The translations under genes were made by a program, and so were the position numbers. From Corynebacterium urinipleomorphum (GTDB taxonomy: Bacteria > Actinomycetota > Actinomycetes > Mycobacteriales > Mycobacteriaceae), in NCBI RefSeq assembly GCF_900155535.1, contig NZ_LT706965.1, forward strand, positions 509,393-573,392: a stretch of 64,000 nt of DNA, given 5' to 3'. The notes beneath the pieces are model-generated. The model saw only the letters and a program-made list of their open reading frames with translations. It was not told the origin of the DNA and did not search any database. Shown here in pieces: positions 6,822 to 62,496 of the stretch; the stretch's first letter is position 1, and each line of letters begins with the position of its first letter.

Positions 6822-7208
6822 ATGAGTGAATCGGTTGCGGTAGACGTCGATAAGCAAGAAGCCCATAAAGGCGCGCGTACAGGTGCCCAGCGCGCCACTC
6901 CGTACGCGATGTTCGCCGTCTATTTGCTTGGGCCGCTCGTTCTCATTCCCGCCGTAGGCGAAGAGAACGCGGTGATTCCGTCGATCGCCCTCATTTTGGG
7001 CGCTGCTGCGATCTTCGGGTTCATCGACGGCTGGACTTACCGCCCAACCTGGTCTTTCCCGGTTCTTGCGGGCGTTGCTTTCCTCGCCGCGAAATTCCTG
7101 TACTTCAACGACGGGACCGTCATTTATTTCATGGGTGCCGTCCTCGTCGCCGCGGCCGCCACGTTCCTCGCAGGTGCGCTAGCCGGCACTAACCCGAAGG
7201 AAAGCTAA
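6822..7208 (+). CDS. Small four-helix membrane protein, unknown function
   Basis: This 128-residue protein has a charged, soluble N-terminus of about 25 residues followed by four hydrophobic segments (about residues 29-45, 49-67, 74-88 and 100-120). I do not recognise a family. It starts with ATG, and only 3 bases separate its stop from the next gene, so the two are probably translated together and may form a membrane complex. A copy of the GCTTATCGACG word overlaps codons 9-11 (Val-Asp-Lys). The pair is inserted between the deacetylase gene and metK. Confidence 0.75.
   Translation: MSESVAVDVDKQEAHKGARTGAQRATPYAMFAVYLLGPLVLIPAVGEENAVIPSIALILGAAAIFGFIDGWTYRPTWSFPVLAGVAFLAAKFLYFNDGTVIYFMGAVLVAAAATFLAGALAGTNPKES
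6845..6855 (-). repeat. GCTTATCGACG word, copy 3
   Basis: This exact 11-mer lies near the 5' end of the small membrane protein gene, where the gene reads it as Val-Asp-Lys. Confidence 0.85.
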
Positions 7209-9464: not shown

Positions 9465-10715
9465 TCACTGTCTGTTTTCAGTCATCTCCTCGATCGCATC
9501 CCAGATCCGCGCAGCTACCACGTGCTTCGGGCCGTCTGCGATTTCCTGGGTCTCGCCGCCGCGGCCGATCAACCAACCGCTGTTGCGTGTCTCACCGAAC
9601 ACGGCACCGCCCGCCACAGAATTGACCATGAGCATGTCGGCGCCCTTGCTCTTTAGTTTCGCCTTACCGTATTCAAGCAGGTTGTCTGTTTCCGCGGCGA
9701 AGCCGACGATCGCGGCGGAAGTCTCCCCCGCATTCCGCTTATCGACGAGCCCCTTCAGAATGTCCGGGTTCTCCACCAAACGCAGGGTCGACAGCGCGTC
9801 ATCGGCCTGGCCCTTTTTCAGTTTGGAGCCAGCCTCATTCTCCGGCCTGTAATCGGCGACAGCTGCTGCCATGATGACGATGTCCGCGTCCACAGCCGCG
9901 GTGTCGACGGCCTCCTTCATCTCGCGGGTGGAGCGGACTTTGATGATCTCTGCACCGGGTGGGGTGTCCAGTGCGTCAGTATCGCCGGCGACGATAGTGA
10001 CCTGTGCCCCGCGGTGGGCCGCGATATCGGCGAGCGCGAAGCCTTGGCGGCCCGAAGACCGGTTGCCGATGAAGCGGACCGGATCGATATTCTCCTGGGT
10101 GCCGCCGGCGCTGATGACCACCTTTATGCCTTCCAATGAGCGGGTGTAAGCCCCCGCCTCGAGCACGGTCCGCGCCATCTCCGCTATCTGCCCCGCTTCT
10201 AGCATCCGTCCTGCACCTGAATCCGTGCCGGTGAGGCGACCCCGCGCCGGCTCCAGCACCGTTAGGCCCCGGCGGCGGAGAGTAGCCACATTGTCTTGCG
10301 TGGCGGGGTTCTCCCACATTTCCGTGTGCATCGCCGGTGCCAGCACGACCGGGCAGGTGGCAACGAGCACTGTCGCGGTCAGCAGGTCATCCGCGCGCCC
10401 CGCCGCGATCCGCGCGATTGTGTCCGCTGTGGCCGGTGCGATGACGATCAGGTCCGCTTCCTTGCCCACGCGGACGTGCTGCACCTCGTCCACGCGGGAG
10501 AACACGCCCGTATCCACCGGTTGCCCGGAGAGCGCCTCGAACGTGGCCGCCCCGACGAAATTCAACGCCGCCGGTGTGGGGACCACCCTGACTTCGTCAC
10601 CGGCTTCCGTGAACTCGCGGACCAGGTGGCAGGCTTTGTACGCTGCGATTCCACCTGCCACACCGATGACGACTTTACGGGGGGCGTGGGTGTTCTCATT
10701 GGGCTCTAGGCTCAT
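9465..10715 (-). CDS. coaBC: Bifunctional phosphopantothenoylcysteine decarboxylase / phosphopantothenate-cysteine ligase
   Basis: This protein makes 4'-phosphopantetheine for coenzyme A in two steps. The N-terminal CoaC flavoprotein domain (about residues 12-190) shows GVAGGIAAYKACHLVREF, the APAMHTEMW histidine region and a substrate-flap motif GRLTGTDSGAGRM. The C-terminal CoaB ligase domain (about 200-410) shows VISAGGTQENIDPVRFIGNRSSG and AAAVADYRP. The CoaC flap lacks the cysteine of the usual ACG motif, reading TGT instead. The length is normal at 416. It lies 103 bases upstream of metK in the same direction, with the McbR operator in between. Confidence 0.95.
   Translation of the reverse strand: MSLEPNENTHAPRKVVIGVAGGIAAYKACHLVREFTEAGDEVRVVPTPAALNFVGAATFEALSGQPVDTGVFSRVDEVQHVRVGKEADLIVIAPATADTIARIAAGRADDLLTATVLVATCPVVLAPAMHTEMWENPATQDNVATLRRRGLTVLEPARGRLTGTDSGAGRMLEAGQIAEMARTVLEAGAYTRSLEGIKVVISAGGTQENIDPVRFIGNRSSGRQGFALADIAAHRGAQVTIVAGDTDALDTPPGAEIIKVRSTREMKEAVDTAAVDADIVIMAAAVADYRPENEAGSKLKKGQADDALSTLRLVENPDILKGLVDKRNAGETSAAIVGFAAETDNLLEYGKAKLKSKGADMLMVNSVAGGAVFGETRNSGWLIGRGGETQEIADGPKHVVAARIWDAIEEMTENRQ
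9737..9747 (+). repeat. GCTTATCGACG word, copy 4
   Basis: This exact 11-mer lies antisense within coaBC, where the gene reads it as Val-Asp-Lys. Confidence 0.85.
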
Positions 10716-15144: not shown

Positions 15145-16005
15145 TTAACCGCGCCCGGCCAGGACTTTGGCCGCTTTCCGCAGGTCAGCAACATCCGGGC
15201 CCTCGGAGAGCACAGAACGGGAGACGTTTGGGAAGACGAGGTGGGCGTTCGCGCCGGCGATCCGCGAGACGTCCTCCATCGTCGCGCCCTGTGCACCCAC
15301 TCCGGGCATGAGCACAGGAGCATTCAGGTGGTCGAGGTTCGGCGGGGTTTTCACTGTCGCGCCGACAACCACACCAACGTGCCCGACGTACGCGTACTCC
15401 GAATCGCTTTCAGCACGCTTATCGACGTTGTACGCCGCGCATTCGTCCACCATCTGCTGCGCCACGGTGACACCGCTCCGGTCGAGAACCTGGGACTGAA
15501 ACGCTTCCGCCTCCGGGTTGGAGTTTGCGGACATGACGAAGACACCGCGGTTCTCGCGCCCGGCTAGTTCGATGGCCGGAGCCAGAGACCCGACACCGAG
15601 GTAGGGAGTCAGTGTCACGGCATCGCAGCGCAACGGGGAGTTCTCGTCGAGCCATGCAAGGGCATAACCCTCCATGGTCGAGCCGATGTCGCCGCGTTTG
15701 GCGTCGGCCACCACGAGAGAGTCACTCTCCCGCAACTGTGCGAGTACCTCCTCCAGCACGGCAAATCCGGCGGAGCCGAAGCGCTCGTAGAACGCCACCT
15801 GAGGTTTGATCAGCGCGACGTGGCCGGCAAAGGCCTCGACGCAGCGCAGGGAGAACTCTCTCAACCCTTCGGCATCCAGGGAGAGCCCCCAGGCACTGAG
15901 CAGCGCCTCATGGGGGTCAATACCAACGCAGAGCCGGCCGAAGCACTCCCCCGCCGCGACAAGACGGTTGCCGAAATTCCGCGGATTAGCGTCCTCGATG
16001 CCCAT
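15145..16005 (-). CDS. pyrF: Orotidine 5'-phosphate decarboxylase (type 2)
   Basis: This enzyme carries out the last step of UMP synthesis, decarboxylating OMP. The catalytic Asp-Lys-Asp cluster is in VVADAKRGDIGSTMEGYA (about residues 97-114). Its 286 residues and the sequence around LCVGIDPHEALLSAWGL fit the longer type 2 subfamily used by actinobacteria. Its start touches the carB stop without a gap (16005/16006), and it is the last gene of the pyr operon. Confidence 0.96.
   Translation of the reverse strand: MGIEDANPRNFGNRLVAAGECFGRLCVGIDPHEALLSAWGLSLDAEGLREFSLRCVEAFAGHVALIKPQVAFYERFGSAGFAVLEEVLAQLRESDSLVVADAKRGDIGSTMEGYALAWLDENSPLRCDAVTLTPYLGVGSLAPAIELAGRENRGVFVMSANSNPEAEAFQSQVLDRSGVTVAQQMVDECAAYNVDKRAESDSEYAYVGHVGVVVGATVKTPPNLDHLNAPVLMPGVGAQGATMEDVSRIAGANAHLVFPNVSRSVLSEGPDVADLRKAAKVLAGRG
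15417..15427 (+). repeat. GCTTATCGACG word, copy 5
   Basis: This exact 11-mer lies antisense within pyrF, where the gene reads it as Val-Asp-Lys. Confidence 0.85.
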
Positions 16006-19347
<3,342 letters not shown>

Positions 19348-19362: not shown

Positions 19363-20568
19363 TTAGTTCTGCTCGGCAGCGTTCGCGGTGGTGTTCTTCG
19401 CCGCTTTGTGCTCGTCCATCAAGGAGACGAACTGATCGAAAAGCGGGTTGGCATCGTGCGGTCCGGCGGCGGACTCCGGGTGGTACTGAACGGAGTATGC
19501 CTTGCCCGATTCGAGAGCCACGCCTTCAACGACCCCGTCGTTCAGGCAAGTGTGGGTGATTACCGCCGGGCCGAAATCAGTGTCGAAGGTCTCGCCAGGA
19601 TTGAGGTTTTCGCCGCTGTCGTTCGACGGTGCCTTCAGCGCGAATCCGTGATTCTGGGAGGTGATGTCGATCCTGCCGGTGACATGGTTCTTCACTGGGA
19701 CGTTCACACCGCGGTGGCCGAACTTCAACTTGTAGGTTTCCAATCCGAGAGCACGCCCGAGGATCTGGTTGCCGAAGCAGATGCCGAACAGCGGGACGCC
19801 GCTGTCGATCACATCGCGGGTCACGGCCACCATGTCGTCCGCGGTCGCCGGATCGCCCGGTCCGTTGGAAATGAATACGCCATCCGGATTGTGCTTTTCA
19901 ATCTCGTTGAACGGCGTGCCTGCGGGAACCACCACCGTCTCAATACCGCGCTGGGCGAAATGCCCCGGCGTCGCCGTCTTGATGCCCATGTCGAATGCGA
20001 CGACGGTGTAGCGCTTCTCTCCCACCGCCGGGATCACGTACGGCTCCTCCGTGGATACTTCCGCGGACAGGTCAGCTCCGGACATCGCGGGCTGTTCATT
20101 AACACGGGCAACAAGCTTATCGACGTCCCCCTGCGCCTCCTCCCCCGTGAAGATCCCAGCCGCGATCGAGCCGTAGTTGCGCAGGTGCCGTACCAGCGAG
20201 CGGGTGTCTACTCCGTAGATACCTGTGATGCCCTGCGCCGCCATCTCTTCTTCGAGGCTGCGCTCGGCGCGCCAGTTTGAGACCCGCTTGGACAGGTCTC
20301 GGATGACCAGGCCTGCGACCCAAATGCGGTTGTCGTGGGACTCGTTGTCCTCGTCGTTCCAGCCGGTGTTGCCGATCTGGGGGGCCGTGGTGACCACGAT
20401 CTGGCGGTGGTACGACGGATCCGTCATCGTCTCCTGGTAGCCGGTCATGGCGGTGGTGAAAACAGCCTCGCCGAAGACAGCCTCGCCGTTTGCCGCCCCG
20501 AAGGCGAAGCCAGGGAATGTCGTGCCGTCGGCCAAAACCAGCACGGCGGGAATGCGGTCGGTGCTCAT
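19363..20568 (-). CDS. carA: Carbamoyl-phosphate synthase small (glutamine amidotransferase) subunit
   Basis: CarA hydrolyses glutamine and channels ammonia to CarB. The N-terminal CPSase domain starts PAVLVLADGTTFPGFAFG. The class I glutamine amidotransferase domain has the nucleophile cysteine in LFGICFGNQILG (about residue 264) and the His/Glu pair in VQYHPESAAGPHD (about residue 350). The 401-residue length is a little above average, with an Ala/Thr-rich tail. The gap to pyrC upstream is 76 bases and contains a small inverted repeat. Confidence 0.98.
   Translation of the reverse strand: MSTDRIPAVLVLADGTTFPGFAFGAANGEAVFGEAVFTTAMTGYQETMTDPSYHRQIVVTTAPQIGNTGWNDEDNESHDNRIWVAGLVIRDLSKRVSNWRAERSLEEEMAAQGITGIYGVDTRSLVRHLRNYGSIAAGIFTGEEAQGDVDKLVARVNEQPAMSGADLSAEVSTEEPYVIPAVGEKRYTVVAFDMGIKTATPGHFAQRGIETVVVPAGTPFNEIEKHNPDGVFISNGPGDPATADDMVAVTRDVIDSGVPLFGICFGNQILGRALGLETYKLKFGHRGVNVPVKNHVTGRIDITSQNHGFALKAPSNDSGENLNPGETFDTDFGPAVITHTCLNDGVVEGVALESGKAYSVQYHPESAAGPHDANPLFDQFVSLMDEHKAAKNTTANAAEQN
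20114..20124 (+). repeat. GCTTATCGACG word, copy 7
   Basis: This exact 11-mer lies antisense within carA, where the gene reads it as Val-Asp-Lys. Confidence 0.85.
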
Positions 20569-23575: not shown

Positions 23576-24922
23576 TTGTCCCTCACCGCAACACACACTA
23601 TTCCCGCCCCGCTTATCGACGTCTGGCGCTGGCACACCCGCCCCGGCGCCGTCCAACGTCTCACTCCCCCGTTCCTTCCAATGACGGTGGTTTCGGGGGC
23701 TGACTCTTTAAAAGACGGCACCACCGTCTTCGCCCTTCCCGCCGGCCAGAAATGGGTGGCCCGCCACCAGGCAGACGGGTATACCGAGGGCACCCAGTTC
23801 GTCGACGAAGCCGCCAACACCCCCATCAAGCAGCTGACTAAGTGGCGCCACGAACACCGCTTCGAAGAGACGGATGGGCAGACACGAATCACCGACACGG
23901 TTCACACCACCGCACCGGAGAACGTGTTGGCTCCTGCTTTCGCCTACCGCCAGCACCAGCTCGCGGAGGATCTCGCGTTCCTCGATCGAATGGGGCAGCA
24001 CGAAGAAAATGCCAGCAACAAGCTCACCGTTGCCATGACCGGTTCGCGCGGCCTAGTGGGTACAGCACTATCCGCTCAACTCACCACCGCCGGCCACGAG
24101 GTGATCCAGCTCGTCCGCGGCAATGCATCGGAGGGCCAGCGCCACTGGGACATGGATTGTCCTGACCCGGAACTTTTCGACGGGGTCGATGCTGTCGTGC
24201 ATCTGGCCGGTGAGTCGATCATGGGCCGGTTCACCGACGCGCACAAGGCGGACATCTACTCCTCCCGCATCGGCCCCACCAGGCGCTTGGCTCAACTCGC
24301 CGCCGATTCCGGGGTGTCGACTTTCGTGAGCGCATCCGCTGTCGGGTACTACGGCACTTCTGCCGGCGACTCTGTCCGCACTGAAGCAGACGGCCGCGGC
24401 GATGGCTTCCTCGCCGACGTCGTCGATGAATGGGAACGCGCAACCGCTTACGCGCAAGAAGCCGGGGTCCGGACGGTGAATATTCGTACCGGTCTCGCAC
24501 TTTCGGGAACGGGCGGACTACTACCCCTGCTCAAACTGTCTGCTGCTACTGCTATGAGCGCCCGATTCGGCGACGGGGAATTCTGGATGTCCTGGGTCGC
24601 GCTCGACGACCTGACTGACATCTATTTCCGTGCGATCGTGGACGACAGCATCGAGGGCCCCGTCAATGCGACGGCCCCGAACCCAGTGACTAATGCCGCG
24701 CTGTCAAGCACGCTGACAGCGTTGCTCCACCGTCCCGAGCTCATCGGGATCCCAGAATTCGGCCCGAAGCTGCTGCTCGGCGATGAAGGAGCGCGAGAGC
24801 TCGCCCTCGCGGACCAGCGAGTTGAACCGGCGTACTTGAATAGGCTTGGCCACCACTTCCGGTATCCCACGCTCACCGCTGCGCTGAAGCACGAGCTGGG
24901 CAAGGAGCAGTATCTCAACTAA
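23576..24922 (+). CDS. TIGR01777-type NAD(P)-dependent epimerase fused to an N-terminal SRPBCC-like domain
   Basis: The 448-residue protein has two parts. Residues 1-140 resemble a START/SRPBCC ligand-binding domain. From about residue 148 an extended SDR (YfcH/SulA-like) domain begins with the NAD-binding glycine motif AMTGSRGLVGTALSAQL. It continues with VVHLAGESIMGRFTDAHK and SASAVGYYGTSAGD, which holds the Tyr of the active site. The start is a TTG at 23576 behind AAGCAGG, since no ATG or GTG fits. The substrate is unknown. It is divergent from pyrR. The GCTTATCGACG word overlaps codons 13-15. Confidence 0.85.
   Translation: MSLTATHTIPAPLIDVWRWHTRPGAVQRLTPPFLPMTVVSGADSLKDGTTVFALPAGQKWVARHQADGYTEGTQFVDEAANTPIKQLTKWRHEHRFEETDGQTRITDTVHTTAPENVLAPAFAYRQHQLAEDLAFLDRMGQHEENASNKLTVAMTGSRGLVGTALSAQLTTAGHEVIQLVRGNASEGQRHWDMDCPDPELFDGVDAVVHLAGESIMGRFTDAHKADIYSSRIGPTRRLAQLAADSGVSTFVSASAVGYYGTSAGDSVRTEADGRGDGFLADVVDEWERATAYAQEAGVRTVNIRTGLALSGTGGLLPLLKLSAATAMSARFGDGEFWMSWVALDDLTDIYFRAIVDDSIEGPVNATAPNPVTNAALSSTLTALLHRPELIGIPEFGPKLLLGDEGARELALADQRVEPAYLNRLGHHFRYPTLTAALKHELGKEQYLN
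23611..23621 (+). repeat. GCTTATCGACG word, copy 8
   Basis: This exact 11-mer lies near the start of the TIGR01777-type gene and is read as Leu-Ile-Asp. Confidence 0.85.
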
Positions 24923-24952: not shown

Positions 24953-25420
24953 ATGACCACACCGAATGATCAATCCCTCCCGGACCCAGAGGCAGACGTC
25001 GTCCGAGATATGACGCTCGCCGACATCGCTGCCGTCCTAGAAGGCGAGGGCCTCGAGTACCGCGTGGAAGAGCCCGTCGTGCGCACCGGATTCGTCAACG
25101 CCGCGATGGTCTTCACATTCGATGACGGCAAGCTCGTCTTCGAGTCCGTCTGGCGCGGTGAATTCGCCCCCGAGGAGGTTTCCTCCCTGCTCTATGCCAC
25201 GAACGAGTTCAACCAGACGCACTTCACCCCGACGCTGCGCTTCTTCCAGAGTGAAGAGGACACGCTCGCGATCACGGGTATCCGGACGATCGATGTGAGC
25301 AAAGGCTTATCGACGAACCAGCTCGGCGCCTTCATCGTCACATCGATCCATTCGACGATGCAGGCGTTCAGCTTCCTCGCCGAGACGTTCCCGACAGCCG
25401 TGACCTGGGAGGAGAATTAA
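24953..25420 (+). CDS. YbjN-like protein (first of two)
   Basis: This 155-residue soluble protein resembles the YbjN / type III secretion chaperone-like fold. An N-terminal helix (LADIAAVLEGEGLEYRVEE) is followed by alternating beta strands (AAMVFTFDDGKLVFESVWRG) and a C-terminal helix. Such proteins are common in actinobacteria; their molecular role is not established. The stop overlaps the start of the next YbjN-like gene by one base (TAATG), so the two are co-translated. Confidence 0.8.
   Translation: MTTPNDQSLPDPEADVVRDMTLADIAAVLEGEGLEYRVEEPVVRTGFVNAAMVFTFDDGKLVFESVWRGEFAPEEVSSLLYATNEFNQTHFTPTLRFFQSEEDTLAITGIRTIDVSKGLSTNQLGAFIVTSIHSTMQAFSFLAETFPTAVTWEEN
25305..25315 (+). repeat. GCTTATCGACG word, copy 9
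   Basis: This exact 11-mer lies within the first YbjN-like gene and is read as Leu-Ser-Thr. Confidence 0.85.
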
Positions 25421-25911: not shown

Positions 25912-26666
25912 GCACAGAGCTCATGGCTTAAGGCCTCAAGCTCCGCGCCACCGGACATTTCTCGTGTCAGCTCGTCCAAGGTCACCTCGTCGCGCGACGC
26001 ATTCAACTCCTGCCTACCGAGTTTCAGGATGGTAAATCGATCCCCCACCATGAATGCGTGGTGCGGGTTATGGGTGACAAACACCACCGCGACACCGCGG
26101 TCGCGCGCTGAGGCGATGAACTTCAGCACCACGCCCGACTGCTTCACACCGAGGGCTGCGGTGGGCTCGTCGAGCACCACCACTCGCGCACCGAAATACA
26201 CAGCGCGGGCGATAGCCACCACCTGACGCTGACCGCCGGACAGGTTCCCGGCTTCAACATCCACGTCGGGAATGTCGATGCCCATCTGTGCGAGCTGCTC
26301 CGAACAGATGCGTTTCATCTCGTTCTGCTTGAGCATCCCGAAGGCACCTGTCAGTTCCTGGCCGAGGAAGAAGTTTCGCCACACGCTTAGCTCGTCGACG
26401 ATTGCGAGTGTTTGGTAGACCGTCGCGATTCCTGCGTCAATCGCGTCGCGGGGTGAGGTGAGGGAGGTTGGTGAGCCGTCGATAAGCAGCTCTCCCTCCG
26501 TCGGTTCGTGCAAACCCGCAAGGATTTTGATCAGCGTGGATTTGCCGGCGCCGTTGTCGCCGAGGACGCACGTGACCTCGCCCGCGTTGATGGCTAGATC
26601 GACCCCGCGGAGCGCGTCAAAGCTGCCGTAGGACTTGGTGATTCCCCGCAATTCGATGATGGGCAC
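25908..26666 (-). CDS. CUT2 sugar ABC transporter, single-NBD ATPase (FrcA-like)
   Basis: This is the ATPase of a sugar importer. Its 252 residues form one nucleotide-binding domain: Walker A GDNGAGKSTLIK (about residues 36-47), signature LSGGQRQVVAIARAV, Walker B VVVLDEPTAALG and the switch histidine in VVFVTHNPHHA. RbsA/XylG-type ATPases have two fused domains, so this single-domain protein is closer to the FrcA type. It is the last gene of the binding protein-permease-ATPase operon, 6 bases after the permease stop. Confidence 0.92.
   Translation of the reverse strand: MPIIELRGITKSYGSFDALRGVDLAINAGEVTCVLGDNGAGKSTLIKILAGLHEPTEGELLIDGSPTSLTSPRDAIDAGIATVYQTLAIVDELSVWRNFFLGQELTGAFGMLKQNEMKRICSEQLAQMGIDIPDVDVEAGNLSGGQRQVVAIARAVYFGARVVVLDEPTAALGVKQSGVVLKFIASARDRGVAVVFVTHNPHHAFMVGDRFTILKLGRQELNASRDEVTLDELTREMSGGAELEALSHELCA
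26477..26487 (-). repeat. GCTTATCGACG word, copy 10
   Basis: This exact 11-mer lies sense within the ABC ATPase gene and is read as Leu-Ile-Asp. Confidence 0.85.
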
Positions 26667-31149: not shown

Positions 31150-32241
31150 CTACAGGACAGTGAGTTCCTTCGGTGCCGGCGTGATCACTTTCGGGACGCC
31201 GGAGGTGATGATCAAGGTGTCCTCGATGCGTACGCCGCCCTTGCCGGGCACGTAGATGCCGGGCTCGATGGTCAACGTCATGTTCTCCTCGAGAACTCCC
31301 TCGCCGCGTGTTGACGCTGCCGGGCCCTCGTGGACCTCCAGACCGATGCCGTGGCCCGTGGAGTGGACGAAGTACTCCCCGTAACCGGCTTCGACAATGA
31401 TGTCGCGGCACGCCTTATCAACATCGACGAGTGCCCGTCCCGGCGTGGCCGCCGCTACACCGGCCTTCTGCGCGGTCAGGACAATCTCGTAAATCTCGCG
31501 GCTGAATTCCGTCGGCTCGCCGATGCAGAAGGTGCGGGTCATGTCGGAATTGAAGCCGCGGTAGTGCGCACCGAAGTCGATGGTGACCAAGTCGCCGTCG
31601 GTCAGCTCACGGTCGCCCGCTGAATAGTGTGGCAGGGCCGAATTCGGCCCCGAGGCCACAATGGTGTCGAAGCTGACTCGCTCTGATCCCAACAGTCGCA
31701 TCCGGTACTCGAGGTCAGCCGCGACCTGCTTCTCGGTGCGGCCGGCGCGCAGCTCCCCGGCGTCGATAAGCTGCCCCAGCGCCGTGACCGCGATATCCGC
31801 TGCTTCTTCGAGTCGCCGTAGCTCAAAATTGTCTTTGATCAGGCGGATCTGCTCCACGACGCCCTTGACGGGTACCAGTGTGACGGAGTCCGGCGTGGCC
31901 TTCTCCAAACGCTTCCACTCATCAACCGTCATTGCAGTCGGGTCGAAACCGACGCGCCATCCCTCAGGCACTGTGGCGAGAACTGCGGTCCCTGCGTCGC
32001 GCTCAATGATCGCTTCAATGTCCGGAACCTCTTCCGCGATCTGGGTGGTGTAGCGGCCGTCGGTGGCGATCGCCGCAGAGAGGTCCTTGTTCATCAGCAC
32101 GGCACCGTTCGATCCGCTGAAACCGGAAAAGTACCGGACGTTGATCGGGTCGGTGAGCAGGAAAGAATCGATTCGTTTCGCGGCGAGCTTCGCGGACAGC
32201 TTGCGGCGACGTGTGAGAAAACGGGAATCGGCGAAGCCCAT
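31150..32241 (-). CDS. pepQ: M24 family Xaa-Pro aminopeptidase/dipeptidase
   Basis: This is a cytosolic metallopeptidase that cleaves next to proline. The N-terminal creatinase-like domain (about residues 8-135) includes NVRYFSGFSGSNG. The pita-bread catalytic domain carries the five metal ligands in VTIDFGAHYRGFNSDMTRTF (two Asp), HSTGHGIGLEVHEGP (His), LTIEPGIYVPG (Glu) and VRIEDT (Glu). The length is 363. The gap to the aroQ stop is zero. Its placement between efp and aroQ is conserved in corynebacteria; efp and a prolidase as neighbours both concern proline-containing chains. Confidence 0.95.
   Translation of the reverse strand: MGFADSRFLTRRRKLSAKLAAKRIDSFLLTDPINVRYFSGFSGSNGAVLMNKDLSAAIATDGRYTTQIAEEVPDIEAIIERDAGTAVLATVPEGWRVGFDPTAMTVDEWKRLEKATPDSVTLVPVKGVVEQIRLIKDNFELRRLEEAADIAVTALGQLIDAGELRAGRTEKQVAADLEYRMRLLGSERVSFDTIVASGPNSALPHYSAGDRELTDGDLVTIDFGAHYRGFNSDMTRTFCIGEPTEFSREIYEIVLTAQKAGVAAATPGRALVDVDKACRDIIVEAGYGEYFVHSTGHGIGLEVHEGPAASTRGEGVLEENMTLTIEPGIYVPGKGGVRIEDTLIITSGVPKVITPAPKELTVL
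31761..31771 (-). repeat. GCTTATCGACG word, copy 12
   Basis: This exact 11-mer lies sense within pepQ and is read as Leu-Ile-Asp. Confidence 0.85.
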
Positions 32242-38985: not shown

Positions 38986-41658
38986 CTATATCTGCGTGAT
39001 ACGGTCCCGAAGGGCTGCGAAACCGGCTTCAATTCCAGCTGCGTCCGAACCAGACCCCTGCGCCAGGTCGGGCTTACCGCCGCCTTTGCCGCCGACGTGC
39101 TGGCCGAACAGCCCCACTAGTTCACCGGCCTTGATTCCCTCGCTCACTGCCGCCTTCGTGGCTGCCACAGCGAACGGCACCTTGCCGCCTGCATCCGAGG
39201 CCAGCACGATCACAGCCGGGGAATCGCCGAAGCGTCCGCGCAGATCTGTGGCGATCGTGCGCATGTCACCACCCGTCGTGCCGTCCGGGAGCTTCACAGC
39301 AAGGTAACTGAATGCACCGATTTCCTCCGCTTTGTTCACCAGCTCACCGGTCTGGTTTGCCAGCTCCTTCTTGCGCAGGTTCTCAATCTCCTTCTCAGCG
39401 GCGCGGAGACGCTCAGTGAGCTGTGCGATACGGTCCGGCAAATCCTCGGACGGGGTCTTCATCTCGCCAGCCAGAGCGTTGGCGATGGCCGCTTCCTTGG
39501 AGAAGTACTGGAAAGAATCCAGGCCCGAATACGCCTCGATTCGGCGGGCACCGGAGCCGACGGATGACTCGCCCAGAACGGCGACGGGGCCGATCTGAGA
39601 AGAGTGGTCGACGTGGGTACCGCCACAGAGCTCGATGGAGAACGGGCCGCCGATCTCCACGACACGCACCTCGTCGCCGTAATTCTCGCCGAACAGAGCC
39701 ATCGCGCCCATCGCCTTCGCCTCGTCCAGGGAGGTCTCGAAGGTGTTGACGGCGAAGTCCGCGTCAACCGCCTGGTTGGCGATGATGGAAATCTCCTCCA
39801 GCTGCTCCGGGGTCAACTGCTCCGTGTAGTTGAAGTCGAAGCGCAGGTAGCCCGGCTTGTTCATCGAGCCAGCCTGCACGGCCGTCGGGCCGAGCACCTG
39901 GCGCAGCGCAGCGTGGATGAGGTGGGTCGCGGTGTGTGCCTGGCGGGCGCCGTGGCGCCACTTCGGGTCAACCTCAGCGCGGACGACCTGTCCGACATCG
40001 AGGCCGCCGTTGGCCACGGTCGCCTTGTGCACCCACAGCTTCTTGTTGCCCACCTTCTGCACGTCGTGAACGTCCAAGATGGTGTCGCCAACGACAATGC
40101 GTCCGCGGTCCGCCAACTGTCCGCCGCCCTCGGCGTACATCGGGGTGACATCCAGGATGACCTCGACTTCATCGCCCTGCGCAGCTTCGCCAACCTTCTC
40201 CCCGTTGCGGACCAGACCAAGCACCTTGCCCTCGTGCTCCAGCTCGGTGAAACCGACGAACTCGGTCGGGTGGCCGTCGATCCACTCGCGGTAGAGGGAT
40301 TCGTCGATATTGCCGTGCTTCTTGGCCTTGTTGTCCGCCTTCGCGCGCTGGCGCTGCTCGTCCATCGCGGCATGGAAGGCGTCCATGTCCACGTCAAGTC
40401 CGGCCTCGGCTGCCATCTCCAAGGTCAGGTCGATCGGGAAGCCGTAGGTGTCGTGCAGCTCGAAGGCTTTGTCGCCCGGAACCGTCTTCTGGCCGGAGGA
40501 CTTCAGGGCCGTCGCGGTTTCGTCGAAACGCGTGGTGCCGGACTCGAGTGTCTTTAGGAACGCCTTTTCCTCAGCGAGCGCGACGCGCAGAATACGCTCG
40601 CGGTTGTCCGCGATCTCCGGGAAAGACGGAGTCATTGTGTCCATGATGGTGTTCATGAACGTCTCCAGCGTGTTACCGGTGGCGCCCAGCAGACGAGCGG
40701 AACGGACGATGCGGCGCATCAAGCGGCGGAGAATGTAGCCGCGGCCCTCATTCGACGGGGTGACACCGTCGAGAATGATCATCATCGCGGTACGCGAGTG
40801 GTCGGCGATAACGCGGAAACGGATGTCATCCTGCTGGTTACCCGCGCCGTATTTGGTGCCGGTCAATTCCTCGGCGGCCGCGATCACCGGGGCGAGCAGG
40901 TCCGTCTCGTAGACATTGTCCACGCCCTGCAGCAGGCAAGCCAGACGCTCGATGCCCAGGCCGGTATCGATGTTCTTCTTCGGCAGTTCGCCGACGATGT
41001 CGAAGTTGCCCTTCTTGTCGCCCTCGCCGCGGATGGACTCCATGAACACGAGGTTCCAGATCTCCATGTACCGGTTGTCGTCGGCGATCGGGCCGCCGTC
41101 AGCACCGTACTCGGGGCCGCGGTCGTAGTAGATCTCCGAGCACGGGCCGCACGGGCCCGGGATGCCCATTGACCAGAAGTTGTCTTCCATGCCCATGCGC
41201 TGGATGCGGTCAGCCGGCACGCCCACCTTGTCGCGCCAGATCGCCGCGGCCTCGTCGTCGTCGTTGTAGACGGTCACCCACAGGCGCTCCGGGTCGAGCT
41301 CGAAGCCGCCGTCCGCCTGCGGTTTAGTTAGCAGATCCCACGCAAGCGTGATCGCACCTTCTTTGAAGTACTGGCCGAAGGAGAAGTTTCCGGCCATCTG
41401 GAAGAAGGTGTTGTGGCGGGTCGTAATGCCCACTTCCTCGATATCAAGGGTGCGCACGCATTTCTGGATCGAGGTGGCCTTGCCCGTCTCAAACGGCGGG
41501 TTCTGCTGGCCCAAGAAGTACGGCTTGAACGGCACCATTCCTGCGTTCACAAACAGCAGGGTCGGGTCGTCAAGGATCAGCGAAGCACTGGGCACAGGGA
41601 TGTGGCCAGCTTCGACAAAATGCGAGGTGAACCGGTCGCGGATCTCATGGGTCTGCAC
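38986..41658 (-). CDS. alaS: Alanyl-tRNA synthetase
   Basis: The enzyme charges tRNA-Ala and edits mischarged serine. The class II catalytic core starts [22 protein letters not shown]. The editing domain has the zinc-site motifs [12 protein letters not shown] (about residue 570) and CGGTHV (about residue 680). The C-terminal part has a coiled coil ([26 protein letters not shown]) and a DHHA1-type Gly-rich end [15 protein letters not shown]. The length is 890. It lies downstream of rarA with a 130-base gap that carries a GCTTATCGACG word and a hairpin. Confidence 0.98.
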
Positions 41659-41698
41659 AGAAGAATCCTTAAAAGTCTGATGCGTTGATAGTGCGTTT

Positions 41699-41728
41699 CT
41701 CGTGGGTACACCTTACCCGCGCCACGAG
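41699..41728 (-). other. Hairpin in the rarA-alaS gap
   Basis: Arms CTCGTGG and CCACGAG, with an inner GGGT/ACCC pairing, form an imperfect hairpin about 41 bases upstream of the alaS ATG. No T-tract follows on the minus strand. It could be a regulatory leader structure of alaS. Confidence 0.3.
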
Positions 41729-41758
41729 CACTCACGGTCACCAGCTCACGGGCACTTC

Positions 41759-41769
41759 GCTTATCGACG
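41759..41769 (+). repeat. GCTTATCGACG word, copy 13
   Basis: This exact 11-mer lies in the non-coding gap between alaS and rarA, so protein sequence cannot explain it. Confidence 0.85.
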
Positions 41770-41788
41770 CCTCACTGCGCCCCCGCGC

Positions 41789-43168
41789 CTATTCTCCCCT
41801 GACCATTTCCCGCAACCGGTCCGAGTAGGACTGGATGCGTTTTTCCGCTCCGTGGTCGGTGGGTTGGTAATAGCGGGCCTCGTCGAGTCCCTCGGGCATG
41901 TAGCGCTGCTGGACCACACCCCGCGGATCGTCGTGGGGGTAGATATAGCCGACGGCGTGACCGATCTTCTTCGCCCCTTCGTAATGTCCATCGCGCAAGT
42001 GGGGCGGGACGGGGCCGGAGTGACCTGCGCGGACGTCGACAAGCGCGGCGTCAATCGCTTTGATCACGGACGGCGACTTGGGTGCGGTGGCCAAATGGAT
42101 GGTGGCTTGGGCAAGGGCGAGGCGGCCTTCCGGCATGCCGATGAACTGGACGGCGTTCGCCGCAGCAGTCGCGGTCTGCAAAGCGGTCGGGTCCGCCATC
42201 CCGATGTCTTCGGAAGCGTGGATGACCAGGCGACGCGCGATGAACCGCGGGTCCTCCCCCGCCTCGATCATGCGGGCGAGGTAGTGCAACGCCGCGTCCA
42301 CGTCCGAACCGCGGATGGATTTGATGAACGCCGAAGTGATGTCGTAGTGCTGGTCGCCGTCGCGGTCGTAGCGCACCACCGCCCGGTCGACGCTGTTCTG
42401 CACGACCTCGAGCGTGATCGCCCCGTCCTCGGCGCCCTCCGCCGCGGCTTCGAGGTACGTCAGTGCTCGGCGGGCATCACCCCCGGCGAGGAGCACGAGC
42501 TGCTCCCGAGCGTCGTCGCTGAGCGTCACCCGTCCATTCAGCCCGCGTTCGTCGGCCACTGCGCGGTCGAGGACCGTGCGGATCCCGTCGTCATCGAGCG
42601 ATTCGAGTTTGAGCAGCAACGACCGCGACAATAAAGGCGCGACGACGCTGAACGACGGGTTCTCCGTCGTTGCGGCGACGAGCAGCACCGTGCGGTTCTC
42701 CACCGCGGCAAGCAGCGCGTCCTGCTGCGTCTTGGAAAACCGGTGCACCTCGTCGATGAAGAGAACCGTCCGCTGCCCGCGCACGAGATCCTGCTTGGCG
42801 CCCTCGAGCACCTCGCGAATCTGCTTCACCCCCGAAGACAACGCGGACAGACCCACGAAATTCTGCCCCATCGCACCAGCGATCAATGACGCGATGGTCG
42901 TCTTGCCCGTCCCTGGCGGTCCGTAGAGAATCACGGACGCTTCGCCGGAACCCTCAACAAGGCGCCGCAGCGGGCGGCCCGGTCCGAGCAGGTGCTCCTG
43001 CCCCACTAGCTCATCGAGGCTGCGCGGACGCATGCGCGCGGCGAGCGGCGCCGCCGAGCCCGCGTCGAAAAATGCGGTGCCCCTTGACGCGGCCGTACCC
43101 GACCCAGCGCGCTGCGAGCTTTCTGTACTCCCGCTAGTCGGATCCGTGAACAGCCCGCCCTGGGTCAT
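41789..43168 (-). CDS. rarA: Replication-associated recombination protein A (RarA/MgsA)
   Basis: This is an AAA+ ATPase of the clamp-loader-like RarA family, acting at stalled replication forks. Walker A is [17 protein letters not shown] (about residues 78-94), Walker B is [17 protein letters not shown], and sensor 1 is [13 protein letters not shown]. The C-terminal tetramerisation domain contains MRDGH-like [29 protein letters not shown] chose ATG 43168 (MTQGGLF), which overlaps the upstream gene's stop as ATGA; an ATG three codons earlier exists. The length is about 459. Confidence 0.95.
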
Positions 43169-44295
43169 GCCAGCCACTCCACAACGCGGCGCGCGAACTC
43201 AGCCACCACCCCGTACGCCGGTTCCGTGCCTGCCTCGGCGTAACGCGCGAGCGCCTCAAATGTTCCGGCGACATCCCGGCGAATCAAGCGGGCTTCAGCT
43301 TCGTCGCGTCCCCCGCCGACGTCCGAAGCGGCGGCGTCCGCGTAGTCCAAGATCGACGCACTGAAGAACGCCCACCCGACCAACGCGGCTGTGATGCGCG
43401 CCTGCAGCGTGTCGTGGTTGAGCACCGAAGGCCAGATCCCGCTGACCTCCGCCACCCAGGCTTCGAGGAACACCGCGGTCTCGCGCTCGCTGATTGGACG
43501 CGCTGAAATGTATTGCGGGAAGCCCGCGATCACCCCGGCAATATCGAAAATGACGTCGCGGAAACCGGCCCACTCGTAATCGAGGAACTGTGCCCGCTCC
43601 GCGAAGATGATGTTGTCCGGAGAGAGGTCGAACGGGGTGAATGCGCGGGAGCCGCCGTGCAGCATACGGACCTGTACGGTGTCGGCGACGGCCGCGACAT
43701 CAGCGGGAACCTCGATCCCTGCCTCCCGGATGATGTCCAAGCCTTCTTGGATTCGGTTCTCCAGCATCGCTTCCCGCTGGATCTGGATGTCCCTCGCTCC
43801 GTCGATGGAGCGCACCATTCGGGCAAGCAGAATGCTGAAGCTCGTCTCCGCCCCCGCTGTTGCGGCGTGCATCTTGCCCAGCGACGTTCCTAAATTCCGC
43901 AGCAGACGCACACGTGCGTCGTCGTCGGACTGCTCGAGCAAATCGGCGAAGGTCTCACCGTTGCCCACATCCGACAAAATCAGGGTGCGGCGCGCGATGT
44001 CGTAGCCGAGGAGGACAGGCCCAGGACGCACATCTTCGCTTAACGACGTCGTGAATTGGTACGCGACCACCTCCCTCACGAATGCCGCGTCGTCGACCAC
44101 ATCGTCAGTGTGCGGGGAGTACTTCACCACGACAGACCGGTGCGGGAAAACTGGGTTATTAGCCACCCGCAGGCGCAGCACCGTCGCGCCACCGGTTCCG
44201 CCCAGCTCCTCTGGATCGGTGAGTTGCTGCTTCCCACCGTACCGGTGGTTCAGCACCGCTTGTGCGGTGGCGATGATCTCTTCGGTGTCCAGCAT
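43165..44295 (-). CDS. Kinase-like phosphotransferase (APH/choline kinase fold), unknown substrate
   Basis: The 376-residue protein resembles aminoglycoside/choline phosphotransferases. A nucleotide-lobe strand set ([24 protein letters not shown]) contains the likely ATP lysine. The catalytic loop reads [13 protein letters not shown] (about residue 222), and the metal motif is [15 protein letters not shown]. The usual HxD of the loop is replaced by FxxFD, so activity is not assured. It is translationally coupled to rarA by a 4-base overlap. A perfect 12-pair hairpin lies 9 bases upstream of its ATG. No substrate can be inferred. Confidence 0.75.
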
Positions 44296-47248: not shown

Positions 47249-48004
47249 ATGACGCAGGATAGGGGAACAACGGAGACGTCGATAAGCATTGCCCCGCGTA
47301 ACCGTGCCGTGCCGTTCCTCGCGGCCTTCAACGAGATCGAAGGTTTCCTTCGCGCGGCGCTCGACGCGAAGAAGACCGACAGCTTCAACTGGATGGTCTC
47401 TAAAGCGGAGAAACGCCACATTGTCACCACCGCGCAGGCGAATGACCTGAAAGAATTCGCAGGTCTGCGCAACGCGATCAGCCACGGCGAATACCAGGAC
47501 TTCCGCCCGATCGCGGAACCGCTGCCGGAAACCGTCGCCGAGATTGAGGCCATCCGGGACCAGCTCCTCCACCCAGCCTTGGCCACCGATGTCATCGGGC
47601 ACCAAGACGTGGTCACTTTCGCCCCCGACGAGGACGTACACGAGGCGCTGAAGGCCATCCGGGACACCGGCATCTCCCAGTTCCCCATCTATCAGGGCAA
47701 GCAATGCGTGGGTGTGCTGACCACGAACACCATCGCGCGGTGGCTCGCGGACGAGCTGAAATCAGGCGACACAATCACCAACACGGCGATCGGCGATGTC
47801 CTCGCCTTCAACGAGCGCAAAGACAACGCCGTGTTCCTTCCGCGCACGGCTACAGCTGTGGAAGCGATCGCCGCGCTCACCTCCCCCGGCGATAAGCTGA
47901 CGCTCCCCCGCCTAGTCATCATCACCGAGCACGGTCACGACAACCAGCAGCCGTTGTGCGTGATCACGCCGTCGAATCTAGCGGCGCTGTACGACGCCGC
48001 TTAA
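47249..48004 (+). CDS. CBS-domain protein
   Basis: The 251-residue protein has an N-terminal helical region (about 1-105, with NEIEGFLRAALDAKKTDSFNWMVSKAEKR) and then a pair of CBS motifs (about 108-235: VVTFAPDEDVHEALKAIRDTGISQFPIYQGKQCVGVLTT and FLPRTATAVEAIAALTSPGDK). CBS pairs usually bind adenine nucleotides. No enzymatic domain is attached, so it is probably a regulatory adaptor. It follows the metallopeptidase by 28 bases with a CAGGAG ribosome-binding site. Confidence 0.82.
   Translation: MTQDRGTTETSISIAPRNRAVPFLAAFNEIEGFLRAALDAKKTDSFNWMVSKAEKRHIVTTAQANDLKEFAGLRNAISHGEYQDFRPIAEPLPETVAEIEAIRDQLLHPALATDVIGHQDVVTFAPDEDVHEALKAIRDTGISQFPIYQGKQCVGVLTTNTIARWLADELKSGDTITNTAIGDVLAFNERKDNAVFLPRTATAVEAIAALTSPGDKLTLPRLVIITEHGHDNQQPLCVITPSNLAALYDAA
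47277..47287 (-). repeat. GCTTATCGACG word, copy 14
   Basis: This exact 11-mer lies near the start of the CBS-domain gene, read in a third frame as Thr-Ser-Ile-Ser. Confidence 0.85.
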
Positions 48005-53220: not shown

Positions 53221-54339
<1,119 letters not shown>

Positions 54340-58261: not shown

Positions 58262-59560
58262 TTAATCCTGAGGGAGATAGATCGCGTCGATGATCTCGTG
58301 GACATCCAGCGCAACAGTCTTCTGCGACTGGTCGCGCAGGTTCTTCACGGTGATCTCGCCGGATTCGAGTTCGCGGTCGCCGAGGACGAGAGCGGTGTGT
58401 GCACCGGAGCGGTCGGCGCCCTTCATCGCTCCCTTGAGGCCGCGGCCGCCGTAGGCCATGTCGGCGGGGATGCCGTTGTGGCGGAGTTCGTCGATAAGCT
58501 TGGCCATCTTCTTGGTGGCCTTAGGCCCGATCGCGACACCGTAGACTTCGACGCGTTGGTCCACCCCGTCGAGCGTGATGCCCTCCGCCTCCAAAGCAAG
58601 AACAGCGCGGTCGACGCCGAGGCCGAAACCGATGCCGGAGAGATCCTGCCCGCCGATCTGCGCCATCAGGCCGTCGTAGCGTCCACCGCCGCCGATGCCG
58701 GATTGCGCGCCGAGGCCGTCGTGGACGAACTCGAAGCACGTCTTGGTGTAATAATCCAAGCCGCGGACCATGCGCGGGTTGATTGTGTACGCGATGCCCA
58801 GATCGTCGAGGGATCCGGTGACGGTTTCGAAGTGCTCGCGGCAATCGTCGTCCAGGTGGTCGAGCATGAGCGGCGCATCCGCGGTCATCTCCTGGACCTC
58901 CGGGCGCTTGTCGTCGAGGACGCGCAGCGGGTTGATCTGCGCACGGTGGCGGGTCTCCTCATCGAGCGGCAGATCGAGGAGGAAGTCCTGCAGCTTCTGG
59001 CGGTACGCCGGGCGGCAATTCTTGTCGCCCAGGCTGGTCAGCTCGAGGCGGTAGCCGCTAAGCCCGATCTCGCGGTAGCAGCGGTCGGCGAGGGCGATGA
59101 CTTCGACGTCGAGAAGCGGATCGTCGACGCCGATCGCCTCGACACCGACCTGCTGCAATTGGCGGTAGCGGCCCGCCTGCGGGCGCTCGTAACGGAAGAA
59201 CGGGCCGTAGTAGTTGAGCTTGACCGGCAGCTGACCGCGGTCGAGATTGTGCTCGATGACCGCGCGCATGACACCCGCGGTGCCCTCGGGGCGCAGAGTG
59301 ACGGAGCGGTCGCCGCGGTCAGCGAAGGTGTACATCTCCTTGGACACCACGTCCGTGGATTCGCCGACACCACGGGCGAAGAGCGTCGTGTCCTCGAAGA
59401 TGGGCAGCTCGATGTGCTGGTACCCGGCGAGATGGGCCTGGTTCACAAACTCCGAACGGACCGCGTGGAAGGTGGCGGACGCCGGCGGGACATAGTCCGG
59501 CACCCCCTTCGGCGCGGAGAGGGGTTTGAACTTCTCGGCTTTCTGCTGGGTATCGCTCAC
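58262..59560 (-). CDS. hisS: Histidyl-tRNA synthetase
   Basis: The enzyme charges tRNA-His. Class II motif 1 starts [30 protein letters not shown]. Motif 2 is [18 protein letters not shown]...[28 protein letters not shown], and the histidine-specific motif [15 protein letters not shown] and [15 protein letters not shown] follow. The anticodon-binding domain is at the C-terminus (about 335-432). The length is 432. Its start is 11 bases downstream of the hydrolase gene stop. Confidence 0.97.
58489..58499 (-). repeat. GCTTATCGACG word, copy 16
   Basis: This exact 11-mer lies sense within hisS and is read as Leu-Ile-Asp. Confidence 0.85.
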
Positions 59561-60882: not shown

Positions 60883-61767
60883 GTGAGCAATAACGCGCAG
60901 CGCGGCAAAGACGCCCTGAAGGAACTTGACCGCGAGCTAAAGTCCCGCGACCGTAAAGAACAGACCAAACCGTGGACCATCGCGGCGATGGCTCTACTGA
61001 TCATCGCCCTCGTCGGCGGAGGCATTTACCTCGCCGCCACGTGGGGTTCGGACGAGGATGTCGTTGCCGAAGACGAGTCCACCGCATCAACCGAGCCGTC
61101 CGAGGTGATGGAGCCGGTCGCTCTGAGCAAGCAGCGCTCCACGCCGCTCGACCCGACCGTGACGTGTACCTACACCGAGGATGGTCAGGGCGAGTTCTAC
61201 AAGGGGCTTCCTCAGGCCGAGGGCGTGTCCACTGAGGGCACCGTCGACATCACTCTGGACACCACCGCCGGACCGATCGGCATGACTCTGGACCGTTCTG
61301 TTTCACCGTGCACCGTGAACGCCATCGAGTACCTTGCTAAAGAGGGCTACTACAACGACACCGTCTGCCACCGCCTCACCACCGAAGGCATCCACGTCCT
61401 CCAGTGCGGCGACCCGAGCGGAACCGGCAGCGGCGGCCCTGGCTTCTCGTTCCCGGACGAGTACCCGGCTGACGGCGACGCCGAAAAGGACCAGCCGACC
61501 GTCCTCTACGAGCGCGGCACCATCGCAATGGCCAACTCCGGCCCGAACACGAACGGGTCCCAGTTCTTCCTGAACTACGGCGACTCCCCGCTGCCGCCCG
61601 CCTACACCTACTTCGGTTCCATCAACGAAGAAGGCCTGGCCACCCTGGACAAGATCGCGGAAGCTGGCATCGCCGAGCCCGCATCCGAAGAAGAAGCCAT
61701 GATGATGGGACCAGGTGACGGTGCCCCGAAGGAAGAAGTGAAGATCACCAGCGCACAGGTCGCCTAG
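60883..61767 (+). CDS. Membrane-anchored cyclophilin-type peptidyl-prolyl isomerase
   Basis: This is a predicted extracytoplasmic proline isomerase. A charged cytoplasmic N-terminus (about 1-27) is followed by one transmembrane helix (PWTIAAMALLIIALVGGGIYLAA, about 28-50) and an acidic linker. The cyclophilin domain (about 115-294) contains YYNDTVCHRL, GTIAMANSGPNTNGSQFFLNYGD and TYFGSIN. Domain cysteines may form disulfides outside the cell. The GTG start at 60883 lies behind GGAGG. A clear terminator follows. Confidence 0.93.
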   Translation: MSNNAQRGKDALKELDRELKSRDRKEQTKPWTIAAMALLIIALVGGGIYLAATWGSDEDVVAEDESTASTEPSEVMEPVALSKQRSTPLDPTVTCTYTEDGQGEFYKGLPQAEGVSTEGTVDITLDTTAGPIGMTLDRSVSPCTVNAIEYLAKEGYYNDTVCHRLTTEGIHVLQCGDPSGTGSGGPGFSFPDEYPADGDAEKDQPTVLYERGTIAMANSGPNTNGSQFFLNYGDSPLPPAYTYFGSINEEGLATLDKIAEAGIAEPASEEEAMMMGPGDGAPKEEVKITSAQVA

Positions 61768-61813
61768 CCTCTTCCTAGCGGGGTCAGAACCCCACCTTTT
61801 ACACCTCCCACAA

Positions 61814-61856
61814 ACCCGCCGAGCGTGATGTTAGTCACACACGGCGGGTCTTCTTT
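61814..61856 (+). terminator. Rho-independent terminator of the cyclophilin gene
   Basis: Arms ACCCGCCG and CGGCGGGT, with an inner GTGA/TCAC pairing, are followed by CTTCTTT. It lies 47 bases after the stop. Confidence 0.85.
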
Positions 61857-61900: not shown

Positions 61901-61911
61901 GCTTATCGACG
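61901..61911 (+). repeat. GCTTATCGACG word, copy 17
   Basis: This exact 11-mer lies in non-coding DNA between the cyclophilin terminator and the next promoter. Confidence 0.85.
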
Positions 61912-62095
61912 AGCCCCTCAATCCCCCACCTCTCCCCTTCCCATCAGTGACGATCGACAAAAGATCCCGTCCAGAACCCGCTCACATCCCACTAGGCTAA
62001 TAACTCCTGCAACATGCGTCACAGACTTGAAACACTGCCGCTAAAGACAACCTGAGAGAATGCTTTTGAAGCTGGATAGGCCCTCACTTCGGCCC

Positions 62096-62166: not shown

Positions 62167-62496
62167 ATGAAGATCCGCAAGGGCCTCCTCGCCGCTGCTA
62201 CTGCTGCAACCGTTTCCTTCTCCGGCGTTGTCGCCGCACCGGCATTCGCTGAGACGAATGCGTCGAACCCCACCGTCGCAACCGATGTTAACGGCCACCC
62301 TTTGCCGGAAGGCTCTTCGGGCAAGCAGCTGTCCCAGAATGCGACTGACCTCTTCTACGCTTTCGACAAGGAGCAGAACCGGTACATCCTCTCCGCGACC
62401 AAGATCGGTGGCTGGATCACCCTGTTCACGTCGATCCTCGGCGCTGTTACCGCCATCATCAACTTCGCCCAGAAGAACTTCAACATCAAGCGCTAG
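62167..62496 (+). CDS. Small exported protein with C-terminal hydrophobic/amphipathic helix, unknown function
   Basis: The 109-residue protein starts with a clear Sec signal peptide (MKIRKGLLAAATAATVSFSGVVAAPAFA, cleavage near residue 28/29). The mature part is about 80 residues. A polar region (NASNPTVATDVNGHPLPEGSSGKQL) is followed by a helix-prone end, GGWITLFTSILGAVTAIINFAQKNFNIKR, that could insert into or lie on a membrane. Size and layout recall small corynebacterial envelope proteins such as the PorB-type porins, but I see no firm homology. It is monocistronic with its own promoter and terminator, and uses common codons, which suggests high expression. Confidence 0.75.
   Translation: MKIRKGLLAAATAATVSFSGVVAAPAFAETNASNPTVATDVNGHPLPEGSSGKQLSQNATDLFYAFDKEQNRYILSATKIGGWITLFTSILGAVTAIINFAQKNFNIKR

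Follow-up and report, generated by a model that had tools for sequence, protein, structure and literature searches.

Two Intergenic Copies of an 11-Base Word in Corynebacterium urinipleomorphum Belong to a Genus-Wide, Strand-Neutral Signal That Probably Works as a DNA Uptake Sequence

The window, i.e., the whole 64-kb stretch of Corynebacterium urinipleomorphum DNA analyzed here, harbors the 11-base word GCTTATCGACG in 16 exact copies as against 0.05 expected under an order-3 Markov model, and copies with at most one mismatch number 30, with a shuffle mean of 1.37 and 7 in the largest shuffle. Two exact copies on the + strand, at 41759–41769 and 61901–61911, had been described as perfect and intergenic in a sequence-only reading of this DNA, and both were indeed found to be exact and to lie between called genes. 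The first is placed in the gap from the start of alaS (CDS 38986–41658, minus strand; TIGR00344 match, E 1e-257) to the stop of rarA (CDS 41789–43177, minus strand; MgsA/RarA C-terminal domain PF12002), these matches confirming the flanking genes that had been named, and it is followed by a C-rich tail (41770–41808, + strand) extending into the 3′ end of rarA. The second lies in the gap between a cyclophilin gene (60883–61767; PF00160) and a small ORF (62167–62496) and is followed by a C-rich tail at 61912–61950 (+ strand). A strong predicted hairpin is located at ∼61810–61850, upstream of the copy and behind the cyclophilin gene. Gene calls were those of a simple codon-usage caller written for this analysis and not of a curated annotation; it placed 4 of the 16 copies in the window outside coding sequence, namely, the two gap copies and those at 23611–23621 (+) and 47277–47287 (−). 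Hence, both intergenic copies of the earlier reading stood, and by this caller their number is extended by two. The additional copies directly precede predicted gene starts, which are uncertain, and would be coding if the true start lay earlier. The remaining copies are within CDSs, on the + strand at 785–795, 9737–9747, 15417–15427, 20115–20125, 25305–25315, and 54270–54280 and on the − strand at 136–146, 6845–6855, 17892–17902, 26477–26487, 31761–31771, and 58489–58499.

The genome of C. urinipleomorphum (2,263,348 bases in 13 contigs) contains 529 exact copies of the word, corresponding to one copy per 4.3 kb, as against four of the reversed word, and the copies are divided 269/260 between the strands. 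The degenerate core class GCTTNNCGAYG is represented by 1189 copies, the 529 copies of GCTTATCGACG included. The 757-kb contig holding the window (694 called genes, 89.3% coding) carries 167 exact copies, 134 of them coding, 32 noncoding, and one at a gene edge. When intergenic and coding densities were tabulated for this contig, noncoding copies made up 32 of 166, and as noncoding DNA constitutes only 10.7% of the contig sequence, the gaps carry about twice their share (p 0.0008). The copies on the contig are spaced more evenly than random (CV 0.78 vs. 0.99, with one of 2000 random sets reaching this evenness), no regional clustering of the word was seen on it, and its largest word-free stretch measures 19.4 kb, below the mean maximum of 25.4 kb in random sets. 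Depletion of the word in foreign DNA was not seen on this one contig, on which no island was identified. A larger set of 314 classified copies was assembled from the contig and two stretches of the related genome G009, leaving out copies within 45–60 bases of the ends of the pieces. It comprised 63 noncoding copies, 4 edge copies, and 247 copies within genes (133 sense copies in one phase, 77 antisense copies in one phase, and 37 copies in other phases), and the 133 copies of the main sense phase, out of 310 lying off gene edges, read as a plain Leu-Ile-Asp string. Exact copies in the sequence analyzed amounted to 382 vs. 1.35 expected.

The two gap copies had also been described as single and unpaired. 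This holds for the noncoding copies as a set, since only 2 of the 32 on the contig have an inverted near-copy (at most two mismatches) within 110 nt, and terminator arms were accordingly rejected as the role of the word. In predicted folds, 6.25 of the 11 bases of the word are paired, vs. 6.57 for 100 random noncoding 11-mers. The description may not hold for the copy in the alaS–rarA gap, which pairs imperfectly in the predicted fold of 41655–41792 with a complement located ∼70–80 nt upstream; this complement shows four mismatches to an inverted copy of the word and is slightly different in the nearest relatives.

Retention of the word between species was evaluated in both gaps. The search for the alaS–rarA gap matched 241 of 242 genomes of the genus, and the best 30 of the 241 loci (own genome and 29 relatives) were taken, of which 26 were read, the loci of G140, G059, G211, and G148 being left out as they were without an anchor. 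The word is present 11/11 in the four genomes that are nearest by this region (G172, G009, G184, and G183), where gap and orientation are the same; an insert in the MAFFT alignment offsets the copies of G184 and G183, and their retention rests on direct reading of the loci. It is also exact in G115, G116, G151, and G156, the gaps of which resemble those of G075, G160, G015, and G073 with GCTTAGCGACG (one mismatch). The similar gap of G048 has two mismatches to the word, near-misses are present in G187, G112, and G224, and an exact copy was absent from the remaining readable relatives among these 26 loci. Of the 14 named Corynebacterium loci, only that of Corynebacterium sp. HMSC074A01 carries the word between alaS and rarA, at another place and in the opposite orientation, indicating that copies also turn over. 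For the gap behind the cyclophilin gene, four of 27 relatives were chosen for alignment, of which G184 was dropped as its anchor was missing, the other 23 being outside the alignment. All 11 word columns are identical among the own genome (G000), G172, and G009 (11/11 in both relatives), with 37 of 60 identical columns in the left flank and 23 of 60 in the right flank, and in G183 two of the 11 word positions differ. In the nearest relatives, the 11 bases thus stay while the flanks drift. Freely diverging bases at both places, which the sequence-only reading had named as the observation that would speak against it, were absent in these nearest relatives; farther out, the bases do diverge, as indicated by the mismatches of G183 in the second gap and the near-misses of G187, G112, and G224 in the first, and copies decay.

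The same was evaluated for the contig copies, 95 of 167 being alignable to 440 kb of G009 (72 were unalignable and not counted). Among coding copies, the word was unchanged in G009 in 54 of 74, and among noncoding copies in 16 of 21, as compared with 753 of 4083 (18%) coding and 121 of 590 (21%) noncoding control 11-mers, which were in phase, of the same class, and 15–99 bases from the word (Fisher p 9e-24 for coding and 1e-7 for noncoding, the overlapping controls not being independent). Noncoding copies are as strongly retained as coding ones. The identity profile showed a plateau of ∼0.9–1.0 over the word with a sole dip, to 0.81, at position 4; this is also the position at which all three substitutions are common (66, 83, and 76 copies vs. 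7.2, 5.2, and 2.4 expected, as compared with the 382 exact copies).

Analysis of the sequence around the word revealed a composition bias on one side. At position −1, G is avoided, accounting for 2% in the noncoding set, and C is favored at +12, +14, +15, and +21 to +24. For noncoding copies, the skew (C−G)/(C+G) falls from 0.48 (+11 to +30) to 0.26 (+31 to +50) and 0.05 (+51 to +70), the 60 bases ahead of the word having values of 0.07–0.15. Third codon positions showed a skew of 0.75, 0.58, and then 0.17, the level elsewhere, for sense copies and of 0.64, 0.38, and then −0.15 for antisense copies; as sense and antisense copies both carry the tail, the signal is likely to be read as DNA and not as a transcript. 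In the first 20 nt, the skew is 0.44 for the exact word, 0.34 for GCTT[CGT]TCGACG, 0.31 for GCTTN[ACG]CGACG, and weaker (0.18) for GCTTNNCGATG, all of which are variants with the right spacing. The tail is absent with purine-9 variants (0.02), with a spacing of 3 (−0.09) or 1 (0.04), and with the reversed word (−0.05). Spacing 2 occurs 903 times in the sequence analyzed, spacing 3 occurs 124 times, and spacing 1 occurs 29 times. The unit is thus GCTT-NN-CGAYG together with ∼40 nt of C-rich, G-poor DNA on one side. Hence, the 11-base word of the earlier reading is real, but it is part of a larger unit made of a degenerate core and a C-rich tail, the latter being present at the copies in both gaps. 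A C-run or G-quadruplex in the tail was rejected, as runs of three or more C are not commoner than in shuffled sequence (1.81 vs. 2.02 per tail).

The nearest named relatives by RarA are Corynebacterium, and C. senegalense (G243) agrees with G148 of the genus set in match coordinates and word counts. In the set of 242 Corynebacterium genomes (own genome included, some incomplete), 172 carry the exact word 10 or more times and 113 carry it at least 100 times, the highest count being 782, and over these 113 genomes the strands carry 15,377 and 15,301 copies. The core class reaches at least three times the reversed control in 189 of the 242 genomes and remains below twice the control in 45. Among named species and strains, the word was counted 359 times in C. 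sp. HMSC074A01, 223 times in C. wankanglinii, 141 times in C. senegalense, 128 times in C. aurimucosum, 97 times in C. tuberculostearicum SK141, and 66 times in C. sputi; C. variabile (0), C. mendelii (0), C. sp. SN15 (2), C. marambiense (5), and C. sp. MSK130 (7) are word-poor. Seven actinobacteria outside Corynebacterium contain 0–4 copies each. In 185 genomes of 30 other genera (of 201 family genomes), the core class is near background, and the highest class/control ratio outside the genus, as read by eye, is 2.7 (G359, 449 vs. 168).

A related word, GCTTGCCGATG, is present in 133–478 copies in 14 of the 242 genomes (G001, G004, G024, G027, G097, G102, G107, G129, G144, G145, G152, G165, G176, and G210) and in 0–37 copies elsewhere, as read by eye. 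In 13 of these 14 genomes, the first word has at most 13 copies. Related words each in their own species, which is how dialects of uptake sequences are distributed, were thus found with the exception of G024. This genome bears both dialects in number (45 copies of the first word and 210 of GCTTGCCGATG), and a dialect switch may be in progress in it. The top words of G001 are GCTTGCCGATGCC and its shifts, and 21 of 31 class copies in the 60 kb read from G107 are GCTTGNCGATG forms. The dialects are tailed as well, the skews of the first and second 20 nt being 0.42 and 0.14 in G001, 0.40 and 0.16 in G097, and 0.33 and 0.15 in G107; the tail of G054 is weak (0.14 and 0.00). Six genomes (G056, G070, G071, G168, G169, and G237) have 1495–1973 class copies and only 2–4 of the first word, indicating that further dialects exist. 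The 45 genomes without core-class signal (e.g., G007, G011, G029, G132, and G230) could have lost the word, could have lost the receptor, or could use an unrelated word. Class copies number at most three each in the sequence read from G012, G021, G011, G132, and G230. Another over-represented word, approximately TTGATGACG[CT]CGCG, was observed in G012, where ATGACGCCGCG has 17 copies per 100 kb vs. 0.2 expected, and other over-represented strings were observed in G230 and G021 (CGACGCCACC; GGCGTCGTCCCC, GAGGCGAAGCC). The over-represented words of word-less G012, G230, and G021 did not clearly show a two-step tail.

Matches to genes for DNA uptake are present in the word-bearing species. A ComEC match was found in 241 of 242 genomes of the genus, a ComEA-type match in all 242 (231 above the cut-off), and a T2SSE/TadA-family match in 239 (235 above the cut-off); the genomes without a T2SSE match are the word-rich G168 and G190, which are fragmentary or incomplete assemblies, and the word-poor G204. 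The 45 genomes without core-class signal all have ComEC and ComEA-type matches, and all but G204 have a T2SSE match. This machinery is equally present in word-less species and hence does not explain which species have the word, and the presence of ComEC, ComEA, and T2SSE was rejected as the decider on account of being nearly universal. The tad locus of C. urinipleomorphum contains genes for an Ssd/CpaE-like protein, TadA, two T2SSF proteins, a DUF4244 Flp-like pilin, a TadE-like protein (Rv3655c type, below its cut-off), and an Rv3654c-type protein. The tad minor pilins and ComEA are candidate receptors. The ComEC gene of this genome is divided between two reading frames by a single frameshift (C13, ∼122,459–122,462), across which the ComEC proteins of six other genomes align; the isolate may therefore have lost DNA uptake, or the frameshift may be an assembly or sequencing error. 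ComEC in two pieces was likewise observed in G014 and G091.

Several systems resemble the one described here. Inverted pairs serving as terminators are common in the DNA uptake sequences (DUS) of Neisseriaceae and the uptake signal sequences (USS) of Pasteurellaceae, though not defining for them, and the Haemophilus USS carries flanking A/T tracts. Similar to the USS, the Corynebacterium signal consists of a core word with composition-biased sequence on one side, but its tail is C-rich and longer and not A/T-rich, its sequence is unrelated, and inverted terminator pairs are not a feature of it. The copy number of the USS, given as ∼1300 in the sections of PMC5217627 considered, is comparable to that of the Corynebacterium word. 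Similar to the DUS as described in passages of PMC3630211, one short word is over-represented in genes and gaps, and related dialects exist within the group, those of Neisseria being dialects of one word across the family with 2245–3603 copies for two dialects in four genomes. The Corynebacterium word differs from the DUS in being fewer (529 exact and 1189 class copies), in its sequence and phylum (actinobacteria), in its 40-nt C-rich tail, and in not having inverted terminator pairs as a feature; the Tad locus was considered here, ComP lying outside the comparison. Micrococcus luteus is an actinobacterium with tad, comEA, and comEC, i.e., genes of the same kinds as those of Corynebacterium, and according to the parts of the source considered, it is naturally transformed by way of its Flp pili and ComEA/ComEC, and tad and com genes are often found together among actinobacteria (PMC4322843). 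Transformation has been demonstrated in M. luteus, whereas for Corynebacterium it is a prediction; in the text of that paper, the words "uptake sequence" do not occur (PMC4322843).

Among the matches listed from the open-access literature (subscription journals and preprints being outside it), there was none recognizable by its title or the opening of its abstract as a report of an uptake word, this repeat, or transformation in Corynebacterium, and the listed matches to the letters of the word (9- to 11-base strings) have titles that look like primer or oligonucleotide matches. CRISPR-derived motif pairs are reported for Corynebacterium in the part of PMC5217627 considered.

The word could owe its abundance to a frequent peptide or codon pair, as the Leu-Ile-Asp string of the main sense phase might suggest, or to chance. 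Such an origin is practically negligible in view of the 382 copies against 1.35 expected, the enrichment of noncoding copies and their equal retention, and the occurrence in several frames and on both strands, and the earlier statement that the word is not a coding by-product is upheld by these findings. A signal acting at the RNA level is very unlikely as well: the ∼40 nt with C over G resemble a Rho-utilisation sequence and could point to Rho loading, but the tail is strong in antisense and gap copies too, and an invariant core with dialects is no part of Rho loading. Being short, abundant, and oriented, the word could also be an FtsK segregation signal of the KOPS type or another replication-polar signal. 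Signals of the KOPS type must point one way per replichore, whereas copies in forward and reverse orientation number 33 and 36 in the first half and 73 and 73 in the second half of the G009 sequence sampled (820 kb, halves split mid-contig, the GC skew changing sign between them), which makes this explanation improbable in the extreme.

Two further explanations deserve slightly more weight. Chi sites, which are read on one strand by the helicase-nuclease of break repair, are short, abundant, and species-specific, their forms following the enzyme, and the density of exact copies in C. urinipleomorphum lies in the range of E. coli Chi. Known Chi words lean to the leading strand, whereas the word shows no replichore bias (106 of 215 copies on one replichore strand, p 0.89; same 820 kb of G009), and the core of 11 positions with an added 40-nt tail exceeds known Chi sites; a Chi-like site is hence an unlikely explanation, and as replication-polar signals, Chi and KOPS were both rejected since strand bias is absent. 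A binding site of a chromosome-organizing or global regulatory protein all along the chromosome would be in agreement with the even spacing on the contig and with retention in gaps. Against it, 247 of the 314 classified copies are inside genes and in both orientations, the contig shows no regional clustering, positions turn over between species, and an exclusive change of dialect within one genus would be unusual for a housekeeping protein, so that this explanation is equally doubtful.

A DNA uptake sequence is the best reading of these data, as a signal that acts at the DNA level, is strand-neutral, is limited to the genus, and bears dialects fits it better than other known kinds. Over-representation on both strands and maintenance in coding as well as noncoding DNA, which characterize uptake sequences, were directly observed, together with the fixed two-base spacer, the one-sided tail, and the interchanging dialects, and from these we infer that word-bearing DNA is taken up preferentially. 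Judged from sequence, the two gap copies probably belong to a genus-wide, strand-neutral recognition signal working in this way. DNA bearing core and tail would be bound by ComEA or by a Tad (Flp) pilus component at the cell surface and pulled in by the pilus, and ComEC would pass one strand; recombination would then install the segments containing the word. With uptake repeatedly biased toward DNA of the own species, the word could spread and be maintained by molecular drive, and a change in the receptor could give rise to a new dialect.

To our knowledge, uptake words are established only in two proteobacterial families, and we know of no uptake sequence with a C-rich tail of 40 nt. It is somewhat probable, on the genomic patterns described, that Corynebacterium has its own sequence-specific uptake of self-DNA via the Tad pilus or ComEA, independent of that of Neisseriaceae and Pasteurellaceae, with the bipartite core GCTT-NN-CGAYG, a one-sided C-rich landing tail of 40 nt, and dialects that would act as barriers to gene exchange between species. 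An uptake-like word would be new for this large group. If true, natural transformation is predicted in a genus of high-GC Gram-positive bacteria comprising commensals of the skin as well as pathogens and species of industrial use, and the dialects would tell which species can exchange genes. The word would also provide a handle for finding the DNA receptor in a Tad-type pilus, any model of which must account for the C-rich tail, and a third lineage would become available for testing why there are uptake words at all, a question of long standing.
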